A stretch of DNA of 64,000 nt from Lophium mytilinum (lineage: Eukaryota > Ascomycota > Dothideomycetes > Mytilinidiales > Mytilinidiaceae): positions 1,259,897 through 1,323,896 of the forward strand of contig MU004184.1 in assembly GCA_010093605.1 (NCBI GenBank), given 5' to 3'. Every line of letters begins with the position of its first letter. Positions within the stretch are counted from its first letter, which is position 1. Below the pieces are notes generated by a model. The model made no database searches and was not told the origin of the DNA. It was given only the letters and a program-made list of their open reading frames with translations. The translations under genes were made by a program, and so were the position numbers. Below, piece by piece: positions 18,838-39,359 of this stretch.

Positions 18838-19470
18838 ATGCTGAACCGTCTTAAATCTGGCACGAGCCAAAAAACCACTCTGAGCTTAACCGCTAGAGTT
18901 CCCGAAGAGATCAGCCAGCTTGAAGAGCCATCACGCATGCCGCCTCCTTCGTACGAGGAAGCAAAGCAGCCGCGCGTTTTCTCGGTCGCCGAAGCCACTC
19001 GGATGTCATGGGAAGCTTGGCGCGACGGCCATTGGACATGCTGCCGTCTATGTTCAACCGAAAATCCTTTCATCAAGACTTGCTACGAAGCATATTCAAC
19101 TGCAATATGTACAAAATGTAAGCACGTTGCCTGTCCTATGTGTACGTTCAGTTCGGCATTTCAGTCACTGTCAACAGCGATGGCACTATCTATCGTAAGT
19201 ATCTCCCGCGATCTATTCGGTAGCCCCTACCTCCTTGTCTGCCCTGGCTGTGGAAAATCATCTGGCGGTGGTGTGATCCCACCTCCCATCTTTCAGTGTG
19301 CCGCTCTTAACTGGGCGGAACGAAAATCCATCGAACTAATAGGCCTTAATATCCCACAAAGGATCCGCCGAAAGATAGCACTCTGCTTCAAAAGACGCCC
19401 GAAAACACCACTATGTGAATGTAGTCGGCCATTCAGCGCCTACCACTGGAACGCTCTTCGACAAGGCTAA
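18838..19470 (+). CDS. PPxY/cysteine-cluster family protein, copy 1
   Basis: 210-aa single-exon protein, first of five co-oriented paralogues. PPPSYEEA (PPxY at residues 36-39) comes before the cysteine cluster: C69-x2-C72, C91-x2-C94, C99-x2-C102, then C135-x2-C138 in LLVCPGCGKSSGGG. A final C-x-C lies in LCECSRPFSAYHW. The CxxCxHxxCxxC core (CTKCKHVACPMC) resembles zinc-ribbon or treble-clef clusters of small Pezizomycotina proteins with a W(Y/F)CCxC start. No signal peptide or membrane segment. Compared with copies 4 and 5 it lacks the conserved tail after the last cysteine pair. Function unknown; zinc binding is inferred from cysteine spacing. Confidence 0.65.
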   Translation: MLNRLKSGTSQKTTLSLTARVPEEISQLEEPSRMPPPSYEEAKQPRVFSVAEATRMSWEAWRDGHWTCCRLCSTENPFIKTCYEAYSTAICTKCKHVACPMCTFSSAFQSLSTAMALSIVSISRDLFGSPYLLVCPGCGKSSGGGVIPPPIFQCAALNWAERKSIELIGLNIPQRIRRKIALCFKRRPKTPLCECSRPFSAYHWNALRQG

Positions 19471-19708
19471 TCCTAAGACGAGGCCACGATCATATTCACT
19501 GTTGACTCACATTCGCTTCTGTCTCACCTCTGAGACTCTTTTCACACAATAAAAGCGCAGCGGCTTATATTCAGAAAATTGAGGTCTTGTCTCTGGTTCC
19601 GAATGTCAAGCTCACCACCACCACCACCCCCGACCTTGCCCTCAGAGAGTCTGCCCACTCCCTCAGTGTCTGCATGCAACCTCTCGTTCTCTGTTGGACC
19701 CAACAGCC

Positions 19709-20220
19709 ATGCTGCCTTCGCAAGACCAAGACGTTGCTGAAGGCCCGCCGCCAGGCTACTATCATTTCGAGCCGCAGTCTATGGAATACGACTTGGTTTC
19801 ATGGCAGTGCTGCACTTGCTCGAATCAGAATAAGCTCCGCGTGAGCCATGCTACTCCCGCCAAGATGTACCACCCGGCCAACTGCAAGCAATGTCGACAC
19901 TCCGTTTGCCACCAATGTCAATTCGAAAAATCCTTCCAGGCTGTCCCCAAAGAAATCTACGATCAGATCAAGCGAGTCGGACCTCAACGGTTATGTGCAC
20001 GAGAGTTGCCTTCATTGCCTTTTGTTCGCGGTGTGCAACTTGCCACTGGGCTGATACAGTCGAGATTGGGAACCGGAAGCCAAACATCCTAGTTCGTGCC
20101 GCGGCTCACTTGTGGTCGCTTTTGGGGAAAAAGGAGGACCGGGGAAAAGAGGAGTCGAAGTGCAAATGTTGTGACGAACCTTTTAGCGAACAGTGGGCTT
20201 GCTTTCGAAAGAAGCACTAA
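19709..20220 (+). pseudogene. PPxY/cysteine-cluster family, copy 2, frame broken
   Basis: Starts at ATG 19709 (MLPSQDQDVAEGPPPGYYHF, PPxY at residues 14-17). The first cluster reads QCCTCS then NCKQCRHSVCHQCQFEKSF. The opening frame stops at 20092, but the rest of the family pattern continues in another frame up to 20220: FCSRCATCHWA and KCKCCDEPFSEQWACF. A single frame change between about 19975 and 20010 separates the two parts. No intron of normal size explains it without losing the FCSRC pair. It is either a recent pseudogene or a base error in the assembly. Its neighbours on both sides are the paralogues. Confidence 0.6.
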
Positions 20221-20844
20221 GCGGAGCCTATAGGTCGGCATCTTAGAGTCTGAGGCTCATTGAGATGCGATGCACTGATTGATGCCGAGAACTCGGAGAA
20301 CCTCACTGCGCGGCTAATCTTTACAGTCCAACTCTCATTGAATAGCACACATTCAATGTTCGCTGTACGCATCCAATTCATCTGCAATATTCATCCAGCA
20401 CGCTGCGAAACCACCCTCTTCCATTGACGCATAGACTCAGCACGTGTTGTCCTCACACAGTTTATTTCCCCCGGGCACATTGTTCACATTCAATTTCACT
20501 CCATGCTCCGTTCTCACATCACAGTGAATCTAGAACCGGCAGGAATATCTCACTCGTTTCAACTGTTCCTCTTGTTTCAATCATTGTGTATGTACCTATA
20601 CCCCTCTTCATTCTTCGTTGTATGCGAACTATCCCTACAACATAGTGAAATCATATGTCTCACTCTTCACTTCTCGGTATATATAGTTCCCTCTTCAGTC
20701 GGAAGAAACTCCCCTCTCATCTTTCTCCAAAATCAACTCTTGCAATCCACCACACTGTCAAGAGACCACAAACTGAACTCAGTTGCAACTATTTCGGATT
20801 GCATAAACACCAGGATTTTCCCCCTAACATTGGATAACACCAAC
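20221..20844. promoter_or_regulatory. promoter/leader of copy 3
   Basis: 624 bp. The last 150 bp include CTCCCCTCTCATCTTTCTCC (about 20710), also found in near-identical form before copy 5 (about 24460), so part of the leader was duplicated with the gene. An in-frame ATG at 20503 would add 114 residues of leader-like sequence without family resemblance and is not used. Confidence 0.5.
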
Positions 20845-21585
20845 ATGCAGGAACATCCCTGGAGCCGTCCAACCCTTCCAAGCGCTTACGAGTACGAACA
20901 GCTTGAAGCGCTTTCGCAAGCACCCCCGCCATCACCACCGGCAGCACACATTCTCGAGCCACCAGCTCCGCCGCAAACCCCACTACCGGCTTACGTTCGA
21001 TTCGAGCAACTACCGCCAACATATGCTCGTCAAGCCCCTCATCAATACCACGAACGGGCATGGTTTTGTTGCCAGTGCAAGTTCACCACCGGCAATGTCC
21101 TCCTGGAGAGCACCAACGGCTTCGTGGGTGTCGCCCGCTGCGAGACGTGCCGCCATAACGCCTGCCCTCGTTGCCTGTGGGACAAAATTCTTCAATCCAC
21201 TTCACTATCAACGATGCGGGCGATCACATCTCTCACAGAATCTTGTGCGCCCATAAGCACGTTCTGTGAACACTGTGGCAAGCACCATGGCGCGGAAATC
21301 GGCGAGACCGATGCACGGCGACCATTGCTCAAACGTGCCAAGACGGCCACTAAAGTCATTGGCACAGCTCTGGTGAATTGGGCGACGACTAAGTCGCTGG
21401 AACTACCTATGGAGGGATTGCCGACGCCGCGAACGAAGCCAATGGCTTGCTTCCAGTGCGGCCATAGCTTCACGTCCAATTGGGCTACTTTCCACCGATT
21501 AGATGGAGAGTTTGACCCTGGTGGGACAGCAATGCGGGTGATCCGATTGCGTGAGGAGTTGGCGGAGGTCGTGCAACTACGTTGA
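20845..21585 (+). CDS. PPxY/cysteine-cluster family protein, copy 3
   Basis: 246 aa, single exon, start MQEHPWSRPTLPSAYEYEQL. Proline-rich N-terminus, then TPLPAYVRFEQLPPTYARQ (PPxY at 57-60), then the cluster C75-x2-C78, C99-x2-C102, C107-x2-C110 (CETCRHNACPRC), C141-x2-C144 (FCEHCGKHHGAE) and the last pair in ACFQCGHSFTSNWATF. The tail GEFDPGGTAMRVIRLREE matches the FDP-x3-(S/A)-x-RV tail of copies 4 and 5. No secretion signal. Frame intact, so a good candidate for a functional member. Function unknown. Confidence 0.72.
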   Translation: MQEHPWSRPTLPSAYEYEQLEALSQAPPPSPPAAHILEPPAPPQTPLPAYVRFEQLPPTYARQAPHQYHERAWFCCQCKFTTGNVLLESTNGFVGVARCETCRHNACPRCLWDKILQSTSLSTMRAITSLTESCAPISTFCEHCGKHHGAEIGETDARRPLLKRAKTATKVIGTALVNWATTKSLELPMEGLPTPRTKPMACFQCGHSFTSNWATFHRLDGEFDPGGTAMRVIRLREELAEVVQLR

Positions 21586-22892
21586 TACAGATCATCCGGT
21601 CGGACGAGCAAAGGCGGTTCGATGATCAAATAGAAATGTTTCGTAGTTCAAATCAGTAAGCTATCATATTCGAACCCACTCACGTTCCTCTGCCCTTCTA
21701 AACATCCACCGATTCTCTATCCAACATAGTTATCATAGCAAAGTTTGTGTCATTTGACACAAAATCTCCTCACTATAGTTTTTCATCCAACATAACCGTG
21801 GAGATGTTTTACAGGCCGCCATTGCGCCTCCCGAATGGAGAAATGCCACGTTTCAAAAGGTGTTCTGTGAGTTTGCCATATCCCGACCTTCTTCATTAAG
21901 AAAACGTTGTTCACTTACAATCTCTGTCAATCGACGTACACACATTAGCCATGACTGGAGAAATGAAGATTCCCTACTAGGCTCATTGCTACTTGAAACC
22001 AGGACAAGGCGAGTATGATGGGATGGAACGACAACGCGGTTGAATGAGAGGCTGAAGGTAACCTAGAGCCATAGGAATATCTACTATAGGGCGAGGTAGC
22101 CAATAGGTCCTGTCACCTTGGGTCCATAAACCACGGAACAGCATTGGAGAAAAGCGATTCGACGAGGAAATCTGCTGGGAAGTTTCCCAACCAGATTAGG
22201 GCGGCGTCTGACAGCTTAATCGGATTATAATTTAGAGACCCAGCCAAGCGTTTGCAAATTGGGGATCTTCAAGACCTCTGGGAGGTAATTTGTAACCAAA
22301 ATAAGCGAAAGACTGTATGTTCTTGCGTGGCTTTGTCTCGAAGATTTCGTTAGTCTAGTTGTAAGGTTGGCCTTTCATCACCGTGTTAGTTTCTTTCGAC
22401 TTTGGATAGGTATGTCTATTTCGTATCCCACTCAAAACATAAATGCCCTTTCCAATTCCGCGCTTTAGAATGTACTGACCTACTAAATGTGCCTACCGAT
22501 GTATTAATCGCATCTCCACCTGTCTACAACCCACGCTAGTGATTTCTTTCCCCCATCTATCTCTCTCTGTGGCACATTACTTAGTCAAAAGCGTTGTTAT
22601 AGGGCCACCGGCAGCCGACTTGAACGTTGTCCGTGTACGATCGTTGTATTTTTCTCCTGTTCTCCTTTTCATCATTCACTCTCAACGCACTACATGCGCA
22701 GTGAAAGTCAAGGAGGCTCTTTCACTTTCCCTTCCATAGATATATATCTCCTCCAGTAGGCGAATATCCCTTTTCTCATCATTCCCAGAATCTCAACCCG
22801 CACACCACCACTTCTTTCGACCAGGGTCGGTTCGGATCTAACAGCTTGAACCTAAACTCAATTCTACCTTCCTCAACCTGGAACGAATAAAA
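21586..22892. other. intergenic between copies 3 and 4
   Basis: 1.3 kb of moderately AT-rich sequence with no supportable gene. The last 150 bp before the ATG at 22893 are a pyrimidine-rich leader (CTTTTCTCATCATTCCCAG) resembling the leaders of copies 3 and 5. Confidence 0.5.
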
Positions 22893-23774
22893 ATGGACAA
22901 TGTCCCAGGAAGCCCTCCACCCCCCTGCGAGCTTCAATCAGGTCAAATTACACCTCCGCTACCTCCTCCTTCGATTGAGATGGACAACCCCCTAGATCTC
23001 AACCCGTTCCCTCACGGTTACCAGGTCTTTGACTACCAAGCTCCGCCCCCGACACCGACACCGGAACCGGAGCAAGACGAAGACCCCTTCCCATCTCTAG
23101 AAGAATTCTGGCAAATGTTGGAGATACCTCGCGGCCCAACTCCTTTGCCGGCCTATTACCCGTTCGAGTTCAAGCCGCCAGAGTATGATACGCCGCCAGA
23201 TGAGCAAGTTCACCAAGGGTTTTGGTACTGCCACGAGTGCCACTTCACTGTGCCTAACAGCGTGCGCTCTGTATCCTCCCTAGGCATGTACTCTCAGGCG
23301 AGGTGTGCACGCTGCAACCACGTCGCCTGCCGCAAATGCATGTTCGACAACGCTCTGCAGCCCATCCCCTGGTCCGAAGCTCGAAAGTTCAAGTATCTCG
23401 AATTTAGCAAGGGCTCGCCATTCTTGGTGGTGTGCAGCCAGTGTGGCTTCATATGGGGGGCATCCGACGAGCAGGGAGGGCGTCGCCAGTGGGCGAAGAA
23501 CCTTTTGAAGAAAGGAGTCGTGAAGGTGATAGAAGGGATGTTCAGGACGCCTCCCGGAGGCTATAAGGTTGGTCCGGGCCTGATGGGGTGCGGCTGCAAA
23601 GGGATATTCGCAAACGATTGGGCTTGCTTCCGGGTTGTTGGAGATGGTCGCTTCGATCCGAATGCGACATCGATGCGGGTGTTGGAGATGGTCGCTTCGA
23701 TCCGAATGCGACATCGATGCGGGTGTTGGAAGTGTTGGAGAATAGAATGCCAGAAGGGGAGCGGGTCGCCTTAA
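22893..23774 (+). CDS. PPxY/cysteine-cluster family protein, copy 4, altered C-terminus
   Basis: 293 aa. Proline/acid-rich N-terminus, TPLPAYYPFEFKPPEYDTP (PPxY at 95-98), then C113-x2-C116, C138-x2-C141, C146-x2-C149 (CARCNHVACRKC), C181-x2-C184 (LVVCSQCGFIWGA) and GCGCKGIFANDWACFR. Closest relative is copy 5, with the same PLPAY-x2-FEFKPPEYDTP block and VHQG(F/V)WYC. The end is abnormal: a 44-bp tandem duplication (23637-23724) shifts the frame. The annotated protein therefore ends in an unrelated Arg/Cys-rich tail, while the family tail GRFDPNATSMRVLE plus MPEGERVALI is still encoded in another frame ending at 23779. Confidence 0.68.
   Translation: MDNVPGSPPPPCELQSGQITPPLPPPSIEMDNPLDLNPFPHGYQVFDYQAPPPTPTPEPEQDEDPFPSLEEFWQMLEIPRGPTPLPAYYPFEFKPPEYDTPPDEQVHQGFWYCHECHFTVPNSVRSVSSLGMYSQARCARCNHVACRKCMFDNALQPIPWSEARKFKYLEFSKGSPFLVVCSQCGFIWGASDEQGGRRQWAKNLLKKGVVKVIEGMFRTPPGGYKVGPGLMGCGCKGIFANDWACFRVVGDGRFDPNATSMRVLEMVASIRMRHRCGCWKCWRIECQKGSGSP
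23637..23730. repeat. 44-bp perfect tandem duplication inside copy 4
   Basis: Two identical 44-bp units (23637-23680 and 23681-23724, each starting GTTGGAGATGGTCGCTTCGA), followed by GTTGGA. The length is not a multiple of three, so it changes the reading frame at the end of the gene. Perfect identity points to a recent event. Confidence 0.92.
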
Positions 23775-24521
23775 TCTAGAGACTGATCAGGCGTTCAAGA
23801 CAATGGGGCTACTAAAAATTTGGACAATATAGGCTCCACAATCGCCAATATCAGGATGGAAAATGAGCAAGTCGCTTAGAGATGGATCTGGCGTTTATGA
23901 GGCATTCTGGAACGCGCTCATTGGAGGAGCTATATGGTTCCAGCCACGCCGTTGTACTGGGTGTTGATAAGTCTACCGGCTCTGTGATCTCGGTGTATGG
24001 GAAACATCCTGTAAGCTAGGAATTAATGACAAAGATGTTTTTTCGACAGTTGCGAGTCGGCAAGCAGCATTGCGGTGTTTTATTTATCTTGTTGCATATG
24101 AGACAAGCTAACCAGATGATCCTCCCTTGTTTGGGGCTCAGATATAGACTTGTTTCTTTCTACATTTAGCTCTAATACATACTTTTCGTTTTGAAACTCC
24201 ATGCCCGCCATTTCATATCTGTCTCTGCGCACTTGGCAACGATGAGCGCCACGCTCTCGCCGGCACCCCTAACATTGTTTTCAGTGTTCCCTCACACCAT
24301 TCAATGTATATGCACTACCTTCGCTATATATACATACCACTTCCATTGTCTGCATACTACATTCGCTGTGCGCCCACATCCGCGACTTTCATTGAATCAG
24401 AACGTCTCAAATTTCGCATTTTCCTATGCATAAATCTCCTAGAACCCGCAAATTTTCTTCTCCTCTCATCTTTCTCCAAACCAGCATCTGTATTCCACTA
24501 CTGTGAAAAACTCGCTTTTGG
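23775..24521. other. intergenic, promoter/leader of copy 5
   Basis: 747 bp. AT-rich; the last 80 bp carry the TTCTCCTCTCATCTTTCTCC leader motif shared with copy 3. No other gene recognised. Confidence 0.5.
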
Positions 24522-25415
24522 ATGAATACGACTTGGGACCCATCTCGCTTTATTCTCTCGAACCACATCACAGAGAACGTGGAAGAACACCACTCCTCCT
24601 TCTTTCCCATATTTGAAGGCGACGAAATGGAGACTCCGTCATCAACGCTAGAGGTAGGGTATGGCCTTGACCACAATCCGTCTGATCATGAACGATATGT
24701 TAACACTGACATAGTTCCACGATCAACACCTCCCCCGTACGCAGAGCAAGACGACTACCCTTTCCTAGAAGAACTTGCTCTACATCGACAGCAAGAACAA
24801 CCCCCATCCCGGCCAACTACGCCACTTCCAGCGTACGAACCATTTGAATTTAAGCCGCCCGAATACGATACCCCTTCAGGACATTACGTCCACCAGGGTG
24901 TGTGGTATTGCTGTAGGTGCCAGCTCTCCGTAGGCAACAGCCTCCGCGAAACTGAACTTGGTCTTTACGACTACGCAACTTGCGGCTGCGGTCACCGATC
25001 GTGCTCATCATGCATCTGGGATAAAACCGCATTCCAACCCGTTCCCTGGCATATTGCTAAGAAGATCAAGGGTCTCGGCTTCAGCCGTGGGATGCCATAC
25101 GTGGTCATTTGTCCACGTTGTACATTTTTCTGCGGTGCACATTTTTTGCAGCCGCCAATGAGCCGACGCTCACGTCTCAAGAAGGCTGTGCTAGAGGGGC
25201 TTCTGCCGGTATACAATTGGGCATATTACCGGCCGGCCTGGGGGAGGAATCTTCCTTCACGGTATAGGGCGTGTAAGTGCGGCGTAAGATTCACGCACGA
25301 GTGGTTGTGCTTCCGCAATCCGGAAGGCCGGTTCGATCCGGTGGGTACTTCACTGCGCGTCCTAGAGATCTTGGAAGATGGTATGCCTGAGGGGGAGCGG
25401 GTTGCCTTGCTTTGA
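24522..25415 (+). CDS. PPxY/cysteine-cluster family protein, copy 5
   Basis: 297 aa, single exon and intact. Two PPxY motifs: STPPPYAEQ (70-73) and FKPPEYDTP (112-115). The cluster reads WYCCRC (C130-x2-C133), CGCGHRSCSSC (C154, C156, C161, C164; the second pair here is C-x-C), C197-x2-C200 in VVICPRCTFFCGAH and ACKCGVRFTHEWLCFR. The conserved tail GRFDPVGTSLRVLEILEDG then MPEGERVALL ends the protein. Highest similarity is to copy 4, so these two look like the latest duplication. No signal peptide or membrane helix. Role unknown; zinc-binding adaptor is inferred. Confidence 0.74.
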   Translation: MNTTWDPSRFILSNHITENVEEHHSSFFPIFEGDEMETPSSTLEVGYGLDHNPSDHERYVNTDIVPRSTPPPYAEQDDYPFLEELALHRQQEQPPSRPTTPLPAYEPFEFKPPEYDTPSGHYVHQGVWYCCRCQLSVGNSLRETELGLYDYATCGCGHRSCSSCIWDKTAFQPVPWHIAKKIKGLGFSRGMPYVVICPRCTFFCGAHFLQPPMSRRSRLKKAVLEGLLPVYNWAYYRPAWGRNLPSRYRACKCGVRFTHEWLCFRNPEGRFDPVGTSLRVLEILEDGMPEGERVALL

Positions 25416-32338: not shown

Positions 32339-32917
32339 TCAGCCTTTGATTCCCAGCCTCTCTTTGACCATAGGCAAGAATTCCTCATACGTGTCCAGGA
32401 GCGGAAACCCATATGCCTTCGCCATCACCTGCACATTGCCCTTGCGCCAGAACGCCCTCGGGCAGCACACGATCAACTTGCCGCTCGTCGCAAACAGTCC
32501 AAGCTCGAGCAGGCTGATAGGACTGACGGTGTTTTCGTCCAAGTACATCGCGATCACGGTCGCCTTGTTCATCGCCTCCAGCTCCCATTCCACTTGCCCG
32601 CGGAACGTAGGGTCGCTGATGTCCGAGACGGTGTTCGGGTCCCAGTTGCCGCATCGCGGGTTGAGCACCGTTACAGGAGCAGGCTTTAGGTGGTCGGTCA
32701 TATTGCTCTGCCACTCAACGGCCTTGCCCATCTCGATGCTACCGGCGAGGAAGACAGACGGCTGCTCCTTCATCAATAGGGGATTTTGTGCGATGATGGT
32801 CTGGAAGTCGGCATGGGGTTTGCTATTGGAGGGCGCCTGGGGAAGAGTGATCTCGACCTTCTCTCGCAGCCATGGCGGAGGAAGGTTGTGGATGTTCTTG
32901 CTGTCTGTAGCGGACAT
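32339..32917 (-). CDS. Nucleoside 2-deoxyribosyltransferase-like protein
   Basis: 192 aa from MSATDSKNIHNLPPPWLREK. Family blocks are SVFLAGSIEMGKAVEWQ, VLNPRCGNWDPNT, GQVEWELEAMNKATVIAMYL, SPISLLELGLFATSGK and CPRAFWRKGNVQVMAK. This matches the nucleoside 2-deoxyribosyltransferase-like Pfam group, a Rossmann-like fold that cleaves N-glycosidic bonds in related enzymes. The Glu of LLELGL sits where the catalytic or substrate-binding Glu is expected. The frame stays open upstream for 120 more codons (to 33298), but that part is unlike the family. A fungal SLATT gene lies 1.6 kb away on the same strand. The actual substrate is unknown. Confidence 0.8.
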   Translation of the reverse strand: MSATDSKNIHNLPPPWLREKVEITLPQAPSNSKPHADFQTIIAQNPLLMKEQPSVFLAGSIEMGKAVEWQSNMTDHLKPAPVTVLNPRCGNWDPNTVSDISDPTFRGQVEWELEAMNKATVIAMYLDENTVSPISLLELGLFATSGKLIVCCPRAFWRKGNVQVMAKAYGFPLLDTYEEFLPMVKERLGIKG

Positions 32918-34544
32918 GGTGCTGATTGTGGATTCGCTTGTAGAAGCGGAGGCAGTAGATAAATGCTGGATTATCTGGAGAGTGCGGGCGTGGGTGCTTG
33001 ATGGATTGGTTGCTACTGAAGGAGCCACCTTTGCAGATAATGGTGTTTGTAAATTTAGACTGTTATGAGGATCAGAACAAAGACGAAGACGGAGGTTCAC
33101 GCGGATAGTTATGTACCTGAAGCCGTCGATGGTGGGGCAGCTGCAGGTCCCTGCGGCGTTGATCGCGTGGGGTATGAGGCCGTGAAAGAAAGATGACAGC
33201 TGAATGCAGTATGTGAGTGGAATGTGTATGTACAGTACGTGAGTCAATCGAGCTGAGCAAAGGCGATGCGATGTTGACTGCTCTCGCGAGATGAGCAATC
33301 TTTATAGCAGGACGCTCACGGCCGTCGCCGATGAAGCTGTGCCTTTCGAGCTGTAGGCGCGGCCGCAGCCTTGTCAGGTGAAGGCGCCAGCGCTTGCAGG
33401 TGTGGCTTCAATTTTTCAAGGCTCCATGGCGGCGCAGCACATCTTTGACCGCCATCTCTCATCACACAGACAGAGAGGAAATCAGTTGCCTGGTCTTTAG
33501 TTCCCGCTACTTAGCGCCGTAGACGATTTTCAGTAAGGCTAGCAGGCCAGGTTGAAAGAAGGCAGCTTTTGATGCCTTCTACCCCTCTTGCGCCCTTTTC
33601 AGCACCTTGTAATCGAAACGTGCGAGTTGAGCCACATGCCCTAGCGAGTCACTTGTTATGGTGCATGTGCGAGCAAACAGATACTTCAAGGGTCACGGTG
33701 TTGAAGCTTAGCACTTGTCAGGTACCAATTTGGTCATGCTAATCAACTCATTGACTTTCACGGCGCTCTGCAAGGCTGAGTCTTCGGAATTGACTTGACC
33801 GATGAACAAACATCATTCAAATTAGAAGGACATAGCAATGCGCTCCTTTTGAATGATAACAGCATCTTATTTGCTAGGGTCATGGAGTCGATCTCTAAGA
33901 AGAGGTCATGCTTTCTCCTTCTTTTGTGTTCGAACGGCATTTTCCACCTGCTGAGTTAGTGTCCAGACAGTCCTCCAAGCTGAGAGTATAGTTGCTGCGT
34001 GCTATCACGTTGATTGACGTGGGAGCCCGTGATCTTAGTGACTGATCATAACGCACTGGGCCCCTCCTGACTGCTGCTAAAGACAGAGTCAGGCCGCAAG
34101 CACAGCCGGTCATCAGAGACTTGACTCTTATAATTATGAGACACGATATGACGTGAGAGAACTATGAGTGACAACAATACCCCCGAGAAACTCGATTTCG
34201 TAGCAGTGTCAAGTCAAGGCCGACGTTGCAACCGCACCTACTTCGGAAACTAACACTCCTTCTCAATATTACGAACTTGAAACTGCAATTGATGGCAGAT
34301 GTTGAACAGTAAAAGAAGAAGGAGAGGAAGAAGAACTACAGGATCTGTCACTATAATGAATGATTCAACGACAGCATAGGACGATCATCAATACTTACTC
34401 TCAGTAGTCGGAGGAACAGCACACAACGAAATGGTATAAAGCGAAAAACACCCCAACACATTGCGTCCGCGTTCTTAGAAATCAGGAACAAATCTTATAA
34501 GCATCAGCCCTCCAGCGTTCCCATCTCCACAAAAGACACCAGCC
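32918..34544. other. intergenic between NDT-like and SLATT genes
   Basis: 1.6 kb, AT-rich in its middle. No supportable gene, RNA or repeat seen. It holds the NDT-like promoter and the SLATT gene 3' flank. Confidence 0.5.
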
Positions 34545-35165
34545 CTAGACAAGGCTACTCCTGCTCGCCGCACCGCCCCCACTAGACGACCCAATAGACC
34601 TACCGCTCGGCGTCCAACTCCCTGGCCTATTCTTCTGCTCATCCTCCCTAATCCTCTCATACAGCTCCTTCAAAGCCACCACTTCTGAATACCTCACCTC
34701 CCTCTTCCCCGTCTCCAACTCCCTCTCCACCCATTCAATCCGCTCTCTCACCCGCCGCAGCCCATCCGAGTACTCCAGCAGCCTCGTCGGCAACCCCTGG
34801 CCCCTCACCAGCGCCAGTATGCCCGTGGCGACGCCATTGAACGCGCTCAGCACGGCGAGCGAGATATGGTGGTCTGAGGGGGTTGCGGCGAGGAGGATGA
34901 GCAGCGCCGAGATGATGAGTTGGCCGATGAGGCCGCCGTAGACGAGGATGTCGTAGGCGCGCGCTTTGCGGCTGCTGCGGTGTTCTTCGCAAATTATGTT
35001 TTCGTAGATGCCGATGTTGTTTTTAGGGTCTTGCGTTACGCGTTCGATGCTAAGAAACCAGCGTGGGAGGCGGTGGGCGGGGGCAGGGAGGGGCTCCGAG
35101 GGGAGGCCGATTAGCTTGCGGAAGTCGTCGAGGGACACGCGGGTGTTGAGGTAGTCTTCCGACAT
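34545..35165 (-). CDS. Fungal SLATT-domain two-TM protein
   Basis: 206 aa, single exon, start MSEDYLNTRVSLDDFRKLIG. A cytosolic N-segment is followed by two hydrophobic helices (DILVYGGLIGQLIISALLIL and AVLSAFNGVATGILALVRG), then GLPTRLLEYSDGLRRVRERI and a charged helical stretch, ending in a Ser/Gly-rich tail. This order (two TMs, then GQGLP, then a helical cytosolic part) is that of the fungal SMODS- and SLOG-associating two-TM (SLATT) family. SLATT proteins were proposed from comparative genomics as pore-forming effectors of nucleotide-triggered conflict systems; the role in fungi is untested as far as I know. Confidence 0.78.
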   Translation of the reverse strand: MSEDYLNTRVSLDDFRKLIGLPSEPLPAPAHRLPRWFLSIERVTQDPKNNIGIYENIICEEHRSSRKARAYDILVYGGLIGQLIISALLILLAATPSDHHISLAVLSAFNGVATGILALVRGQGLPTRLLEYSDGLRRVRERIEWVERELETGKREVRYSEVVALKELYERIREDEQKNRPGSWTPSGRSIGSSSGGGAASRSSLV

Positions 35166-35514
35166 CTTTTCTAGTGGGTTGGGGGGTAATTGGAAGGTCT
35201 GAGAGAGTCATTGCTAGAGTCGAGAGCTTTTTAGATGGCGTGATATTGGAGCTCCTAGGTGTTTGTTGTCACTTCAGCCACTCTCTTGCCACGGTAGATA
35301 GGCCTGTGTCGATCATGGTTGCTCCTCTTCCTGTTTTGTCAACAGCCTCTTTTCTTAACTTCCTGATGTTGATGTCCATGCCTTTGTACTGATGAGTGCA
35401 GATTTGAGGTATGGTATTTGAAAGGCTATTTGGCCAGTTGATTAAAGAAATACAGACATGGTTACATTCACAATACAGGGCATACTAATCGTCAGAGGCA
35501 CAAACTCTTCCGCC
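35166..35514. other. short intergenic region
   Basis: 349 bp: SLATT gene promoter and 3' flank of the DUF7726 gene. Nothing else seen. Confidence 0.45.
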
Positions 35515-37903: not shown

Positions 37904-39359
37904 TCACTTGATGTGCACCTCAATGGCATCCATGTCCTCGATGTCGGAGCTCTTGATCATATCCTGTGGTTCTAGGAGATCGCCGTCGAAGAAGAGAGTT
38001 ATTTGCTTGGTATCGGGAATTTTGCTATTGCGGCGAACTGCATTTGCAATTTCCTTGAATGTTGATTCCTGTGCACAGATTTTTAGTAAGTGTCGTGGGG
38101 TTCTCAATGTTTTAGAGAAACGTACAGGATTCACAACCAGCTTGAAATCCTCCATTCCTTTAGCCTTTAGTATCAATCTACATCTGGGCCGCGCTTTGTC
38201 AACTTCTTCCTCGTCATCTACCAAGCCTTCTACGGGCGCCCTTTCATGTATTCCTAGTTCGGCTCTTCTCTTCATTTCCGCGAGGATCTCCTCCGTGACT
38301 GCCACCAAGTGCACCCTGTCTTCCATATCATCTTCGAAATCGTCCTGCTCATGCTTCTGCCGTAGATTCCCGTGAGCATCTACCTCCAGTCCAAGGCTAC
38401 TCTTACACGTGGCGATGTCGAATAGTCGACGGTTCCGGTAGGTGAGGAAAACCATGGCAGGCGTAATGCCCGGGGGGAAGGTTTGCTTGGCACACCAGAC
38501 CGAGCGAACCTCTCCGAGTGGTTGCAATAGCTTCCGCGTGGCTATCAGGGGTTTCGTGCCCTCTATCGGAGATGTAATGAAGAGTTTTACAATGGGATTT
38601 GGTTTCTTTGGAGAGCTAGCGGTAGGGGTCACACTGGTGGGTGGATTGGGAGAGTGCGCCGCGTGTGGTCCACGGTCTCGCATTTGGAGGGTTATAGGCT
38701 CGGCAACCAACTCCACATCGTCGTCATCGTCTTCAAGTGTTATCGGCGTGGGCTGCCTGGGCAAGACTGGCTGTATCGAGGAATCGTCGGAGTCGTCTAT
38801 GTCACCAAGATCGATTATATGGCTGGTGACAACGTCATCGCGGGGTAATGAGGATCTGAGTGCTTCTTCGTAGCGCGCGGAAAGAGAATTGGAATCCGTA
38901 TTCGAGCGAGTGGATTTGCGAGGACTGGTGAGGTGAGGAGTCCTACCTGAGCTACACGAAAGTCGGAGCATCAGCTACACTAGATTCGCAGGCATTCGCA
39001 GGCATAGAACGAGGCAATACTACATACCCTTTTCTTGGGCTCCTGAAAGCAGGGCTCTCGCTCCCCTCTCCCTCTCTACTGGCCCGCCGCCGTTTTGCAT
39101 GCCTCTCGCTCTCGTCACTCCTGCGTTTCTTGCGTCTTTCTTCTTTCTCCTTCTGCCTCGCCTTCTCTTCATCTTTCTTCTTTTGCTCCTCAACTATCTC
39201 GGCAAACACTCTGTTTGAGTGCCTGAAAGATTCCGGCTCTGTCTGTGGCGTCTCCGACTTGGTCTCCTCCGCCGTCGCCCAGGCTGGTCTCTTGAAGAAC
39301 GATCGTTTCGCGGGTTTGGGGGTTTGCGCAGAGGGCGGGGGAACTACTGCGTCCGCCAT
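37904..39359 (-). CDS. Rad60/Esc2/NIP45-like SUMO-like-domain protein
   Basis: Exons 39028-39359, 38126-38951, 37904-38068 give 440 aa. Disordered charged N-terminus (SFFKRPAWATAEE; EEKARQKEKEERRKKRR), then RSPRKGSGRTPHL across the first splice. A first SUMO-like segment lies around VKLFITSPIEGTKPLIATRK. The C-terminal ubiquitin-like domain contains CRLILKAKGMEDFKLVVNP, STFKEIANAVRRN and KQITLFFDGDLLEPQDMIK, ending IEDMDAIEVHIK. That LxPxDT-like pattern is typical of Rad60-SLD. Family members work with Smc5/6 and SUMO in recombination repair. The 57-nt second intron has no stop and is a multiple of three, so its retention would insert 19 residues inside the domain. Confidence 0.83.

Follow-up and report, generated by a model that had tools for sequence, protein, structure and literature searches.

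A tandem array of five related PY-motif, cysteine-rich genes in Lophium mytilinum encodes candidate soluble partners of an Rsp5/HulA-type ubiquitin ligase

We analyzed a 64,000-nucleotide stretch of the Lophium mytilinum genome (the window; C4:1259897-1323896 of a 43.2-Mb, 24-contig assembly), which carries five co-oriented paralogues on the plus strand at window positions 18838-25415. Their products join a proline-rich N-terminal arm with PY motifs (PPxY or LPxY) to a cysteine-rich C-terminal region. A sequence-only reading had proposed five related genes in one orientation, and all five frames are indeed present on the plus strand at the starts it gave:

18838-19470, plus strand: copy 1, 210 amino acids, open; PPSY, WTCCRLC, CTKCKHVACPMC, CPGC, CEC; no FDP tail.
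19709-20092, plus strand: copy 2, first half, 127 amino acids, in frame; PPGY, WQCCTC, CKQCRHSVCHQC.
19987-20220, plus strand: copy 2, second half, in another frame and not joined to the first half; FCSRC, CKCC, WACF, then a stop.
20845-21585, plus strand: copy 3, 246 amino acids, open; LPAY, PPTY, WFCCQC, CETCRHNACPRC, CEHCG, CFQCG, FDPGGTAMRV.
22893-23774, plus strand: copy 4, 293 amino acids; LPAY, PPEY, WYCHEC, CARCNHVACRKC, CSQCG, CGC, FDPNATSMRV; end residues in an altered frame.
24522-25415, plus strand: copy 5, 297 amino acids, open; PPPY, LPAY, PPEY, WYCCRC, CGCGHRSCSSC, CPRC, CKC, FDPVGTSLRV.

The copies share one layout, in which the PY motif or motifs of the N-terminal arm are followed by W-x-C(C)xxC or a near variant, then by CxxC-x-H-xx-C-xx-C, a short hydrophobic stretch with a CxxC, and a final cysteine pair ahead of aromatic residues. 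The shared architecture proposed earlier was thus borne out, and the motif patterns given for it applied in part: W(Y/F)CxxC is true of copies 3-5 (copy 1 has WTCCRLC and copy 2 WQCCTC), and CxxCxHxxCxxC is present in copies 1-4, with CxCxHxxCxxC as the copy 5 variant. The final pair is a CxC in three copies (1, 4, and 5) and a CxxC in copy 3. Copy 2 has both this pair and the hydrophobic stretch with its CxxC in another frame. The FDPxxT/S-RV tail is limited to copies 3-5. Pairwise identity of the other copies to copy 5 is 31-43%, and whole-genome protein searches gave cross-matches among the copies down to E = 3.6e-53, so their kinship is not a matter of chance. The first half of copy 2 is the weakest relative (copy 4 versus copy 2, E = 7.5e-4; as query, it found copies 4 and 3 at E 0.0037-0.0038), and the second half, which matched itself alone at E <= 10, was assigned through its motifs and a MAFFT alignment. 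The absence of a secretion signal, also claimed earlier, agrees with N-termini that look unlike signal peptides when judged by eye without a predictor, and no transmembrane-like stretch was found (largest 19-residue Kyte-Doolittle mean, 1.30).

PPxY or LPxY motifs lie outside the folded domain in 5/5 copies, with one PPxY each in copies 1 and 2 and an extra LPVY within the cysteine region of copy 5. Each N-terminal arm was shuffled 20,000 times, and relative to these shuffles the occurrence of [LP]PxY gave p values of 0.0004 (copy 5), 0.013 (copy 1), 0.043 (copy 3), 0.066 (copy 4), and 0.093 (copy 2), and PPxY alone was not significant in copies 2, 3, and 4 (0.064, 0.24, and 0.32, respectively); in copies 3 and 4 the arm is 24-27% proline. 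Conservation offers stronger evidence for the motifs than shuffling does. When copies 3, 4, and 5 were compared with P0007, a relative from Mytilinidion resinicola, the PY core columns were invariant in 6/6 cases, versus 9/57 other N-terminal columns (hypergeometric 7e-5, for rows that are mutually related and a motif picked beforehand), and the x position varied (LPAY or LPKY; PPEY, PPSY, or PPTY). This count left out copies 1 and 2 and a second M. resinicola relative, P0006, from which the PY motif is absent as annotated. In copies 3, 4, and 5, 16 residues separate PPxY from the tryptophan of the first cysteine knuckle. In yeast, one network study links PPxY as well as LPxY to the Rsp5 WW domains, names LPxY as a determinant of Rsp5 specificity (24/38 LPxY proteins of that network interact with Rsp5), and reports such motifs to be common, at about 4% and 7% of proteins (PMC1557994).

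A candidate partner is encoded in the same genome. In WW and HECT searches, matches to three WW domains and to HECT fell together on contig C16, where one open frame holds three WW repeats, presumably of group I, and then the beginning of a Nedd4-type HECT domain. Later HECT matches there fall in three pieces, the first with internal stops, as expected of unspliced exons. From its WW and HECT parts, we read this gene as the putative Rsp5/HulA orthologue. WW and HECT matches number 15 and 10 genome-wide, so other partners are possible.

The fold of the cysteine-rich region was approached through family scans of the five proteins (copy 2 as its first half alone), which gave no family over the curated cut-off and no arrestin match at E <= 10. 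The claim that no functional description exists was upheld to this extent and needs a qualification, in that database records hold a precomputed Pfam label, PF26652.1, on copy 1 (P0001) only; copy 5, P0006, and P0007 are unlabeled. We take PF26652 to be the "probable double zinc ribbon" domain, which to our knowledge is named but functionally uncharacterized. Neither the accession nor that phrase was found in the publications searched. Literature joining "double zinc ribbon" with "fungal" concerned, by title, other proteins, as did that joining "PPxY" with "zinc ribbon", which was in part on LITAF. The second structure model is at its best in the first cysteine block (10-residue means of 62-87 over residues 1-50), and 8/9 rows of a VIA-align comparison span this block, at very low Z and with poor models. 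These rows include MCM proteins, the small RNA-polymerase L subunit, HypA, and the pirh2 C-terminal domain, all of which hold zinc ribbons. On such models, the cysteine region of the array proteins is weakly predicted to be a zinc ribbon.

Two other readings bear on this region. The cysteine block could be a RING-type (C3HC4) cross-brace, making the proteins small RING E3 ligases or RING-like regulators that work through PPxY with NEDD4-family ligases, as RNF11 does; we consider this quite improbable. The C-x-H-x2-C-x2-C spacing, followed by CxxC, is present in 5/5 copies, and weak matches were obtained to zf-C3HC4_2 in two copies (best E 0.014), to zf-RING_UBOX in one, and to IBR in one. RNF11 itself binds NEDD4-family ligases through WW/PPxY contacts and serves as an adaptor (PMC7697665). 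However, the zf-C3HC4_2 scores of 14.6 and 14.0 bits are far under the curated cut-off of 27 bits, and the proteins hold more Cys and His residues than a C3HC4 set. The structural rows, although at very low Z, are also of what we take to be zinc-ribbon type, with no RING among them. Because those rows include RNA polymerase and MCM subunits, they would fit a second alternative, in which the zinc ribbons work in the nucleus, in transcription or with RNA, and the PY motifs merely set turnover through Rsp5/HulA. The scans of the array proteins, in contrast, returned no DNA- or RNA-binding family over cut-off, and we regard a nuclear role as improbable.

The earlier suggestion of a local expansion, if a recent one is meant, is not supported by substitution counts. 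Six pairs among copies 1, 3, 4, and 5 were counted, with copy 4 trimmed ahead of its altered tail and copy 2 omitted because of its frame break. The proportion of synonymous differences (pS) was 0.72-0.89 and that of nonsynonymous differences (pN) 0.39-0.54, and the corrected synonymous divergence (dS) was infinite in five pairs and 2.39 in the sixth. With synonymous sites at or near saturation, the array did not expand recently, and on these counts the duplications behind it are old; the same saturation makes the ratio of nonsynonymous to synonymous divergence (dN/dS) among the copies unusable. Codon position 2 was best conserved and position 3 worst in 6/6 pairs. Judged from these comparisons, the protein sequence of the copies has been constrained, in a pattern that shows past rather than present constraint.

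The family appears to be narrowly distributed, as far as the searches see. Among 5.8 billion proteins, the searches found copies 1 and 5 and, from outside the window, only P0006 and P0007 of M. resinicola. A protein must have 5-residue words in common with the query to be found in this way, so the lack of further relatives counts for little. Copies 2, 3, and 4 were not among the protein-database matches, although copies 1 and 5 were, and may be absent from public gene models. No relatives of copy 3 were found in bacterial and archaeal genomes (20 stretches fit the pattern, 0 were confirmed). Single-protein searches of the 43.2-Mb assembly, with only the best candidates scored, gave no convincing copy outside the array: a match at C1:3140583 (E 0.0115) was rejected because its frame lies antisense to an open frame of 538 codons, and three further weak matches (E 0.77, 3.05, and 6.31) were dismissed by E-value alone. 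P0007 is nearest copy 4 (62%), and P0006 is nearest copy 5 (55% across its final 87 residues), from which the copy 4/5 split probably predates the divergence from M. resinicola, on pairwise comparison. The two relatives probably share one contig, as each lies on a contig of 1,960,146 bases. In their annotated forms P0006 is without the N-terminal half of the layout and P0007 without the first cysteine block, through either mis-annotation or decay.

As claimed earlier, the array contains broken as well as intact members. Copies 1, 3, and 5 have open frames. The frame of copy 2 shifts a single time, and the resemblance of this copy to the others ends near 19985-20003. The tail of copy 4 was altered by the following feature:

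23636-23730, plus strand: perfect 44-bp tandem duplication in copy 4, shifting the frame of the tail (44 is not a multiple of three).

Beyond the repeat, the copy 4 tail does not resemble that of the relatives; the sequence expected there is encoded in another open frame, which was matched at E 4.8e-6 and 1.7e-8. P0007 retains an ordinary tail, without the effect of the duplication at the protein level, so the 44-bp duplication most likely arose in the lineage of the window. A spliceosomal intron was considered as an explanation of the duplication and rejected; GT-AG pairs that leave a readable tail exist, and none was convincing when donor sequence, length, and residues lost were judged by eye. 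These lesions, the parts missing from the M. resinicola gene models, and the narrow distribution would suit a decaying, dispensable family with little present function, whose PY motifs are remnants of proline-rich sequence. Against such decay stand the conservation of codon position 2, though as a mark of past constraint, the invariant PY cores, and the full-length open frames of copies 1, 3, and 5 despite saturated synonymous change; we think it unlikely.

Upstream of the later copies, TATA-like octamers were found:

20678-20685, plus strand: TATATATA, at -167 from the copy 3 ATG.
22741-22748, plus strand: TATATATC, at -152 from the copy 4 ATG.
24325-24332, plus strand: TATATATA, at -197 from the copy 5 ATG.

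None is present in the 320 bases before copies 1 and 2. TATATATA occurs 3 times in the window versus 0.11 expected, and 2/3 occurrences precede copies 3 and 5. The similarity of the octamers before copies 3, 4, and 5 is a hint that these copies have one type of promoter in common.

A family scan of the window showed ordinary fungal gene types on both flanks: a phosphomannomutase precedes the array, and an open frame without a family match and then an amino-acid permease (PF00324; 27749-28807, minus strand) follow it. Permeases are typical Rsp5 cargo, and proximity proves nothing. Farther along on the minus strand are a Nuc_deoxyri_tr2 gene (32339-33301; PF15891, E 4e-34) and, about 1.2 kb away on the same strand, a SLATT_fungal gene (34545-35207; PF18142, E 2e-25); both families occur in immunity-type signaling modules. 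A Rad60-SLD SUMO-like domain (PF11976, E 1e-12) ends an open frame at 37904-38974 (minus strand).

We tentatively favor, with confidence somewhat short of even, the reading that the array products are soluble zinc-ribbon proteins with PY motifs, and that they dock on the Rsp5/HulA ligase of the fungus itself, either as its adaptors or as its substrates. In this mechanism, (i) a flexible, proline-rich N-terminal arm would present one to three PY motifs (PPxY/LPxY); (ii) the C-terminal cysteine-rich region would form zinc-ribbon-type domains; (iii) the PY motifs would dock on the WW domains of the Rsp5/HulA-type HECT ubiquitin ligase; (iv) the zinc domain would bind a cargo or regulator, whereby the protein would act as a ligase adaptor or regulated substrate; and (v) separate copies might offer different cargo surfaces or be induced under different conditions. 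Zinc binding, WW binding, the choice between adaptor and substrate, cargo, and expression are all points that we infer. A bolder version, which we hold to be doubtful, is that the array provides lineage-restricted, anciently diversified soluble PY zinc-ribbon adaptors that give Rsp5/HulA private targets, a non-arrestin counterpart of the ART network. PY-motif adaptors decide the targets of the main fungal HECT ligase, and the most familiar examples are membrane proteins or resemble arrestins. A soluble, arrayed, lineage-restricted zinc-ribbon set, if real, would show that the ligase network can gain new branches. Should the PY motifs prove idle, nothing would set the array apart from an ordinary orphan family. 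The predicted PY-WW binding is easy to test.

Among known systems, PF26652 resembles the array family in its two cysteine-knuckle regions and by the database label on copy 1, and differs in that copy 5, P0006, and P0007 carry no such label. The zinc finger of yeast Hua1 is DnaJ-like, and Hua1 is likened here by description. Hua1 is a yeast non-arrestin Rsp5 adaptor (PMC9105457), and like the array proteins it carries a PY motif through which Rsp5 would be bound. LITAF/SIMPLE has a flexible proline-rich arm with a PPSY that binds NEDD4 WW domains, followed by a zinc-ribbon/rubredoxin-like domain with a hydrophobic helical region (PMC5142333). No such region was found between the zinc knuckles of the array proteins (19-residue Kyte-Doolittle maximum as above), and the family scans listed no LITAF match for them. 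RNF11 likewise combines PPxY with a Cys/His zinc domain and a NEDD4-family ligase partner (PMC7697665); the array proteins differ by their sub-cut-off RING match and their extra cysteine pairs. By the features tested, the array family belongs to neither LITAF nor RNF11; by analogy, these two proteins show that other systems use an arm with PPxY, joined to a zinc domain, in the same manner.

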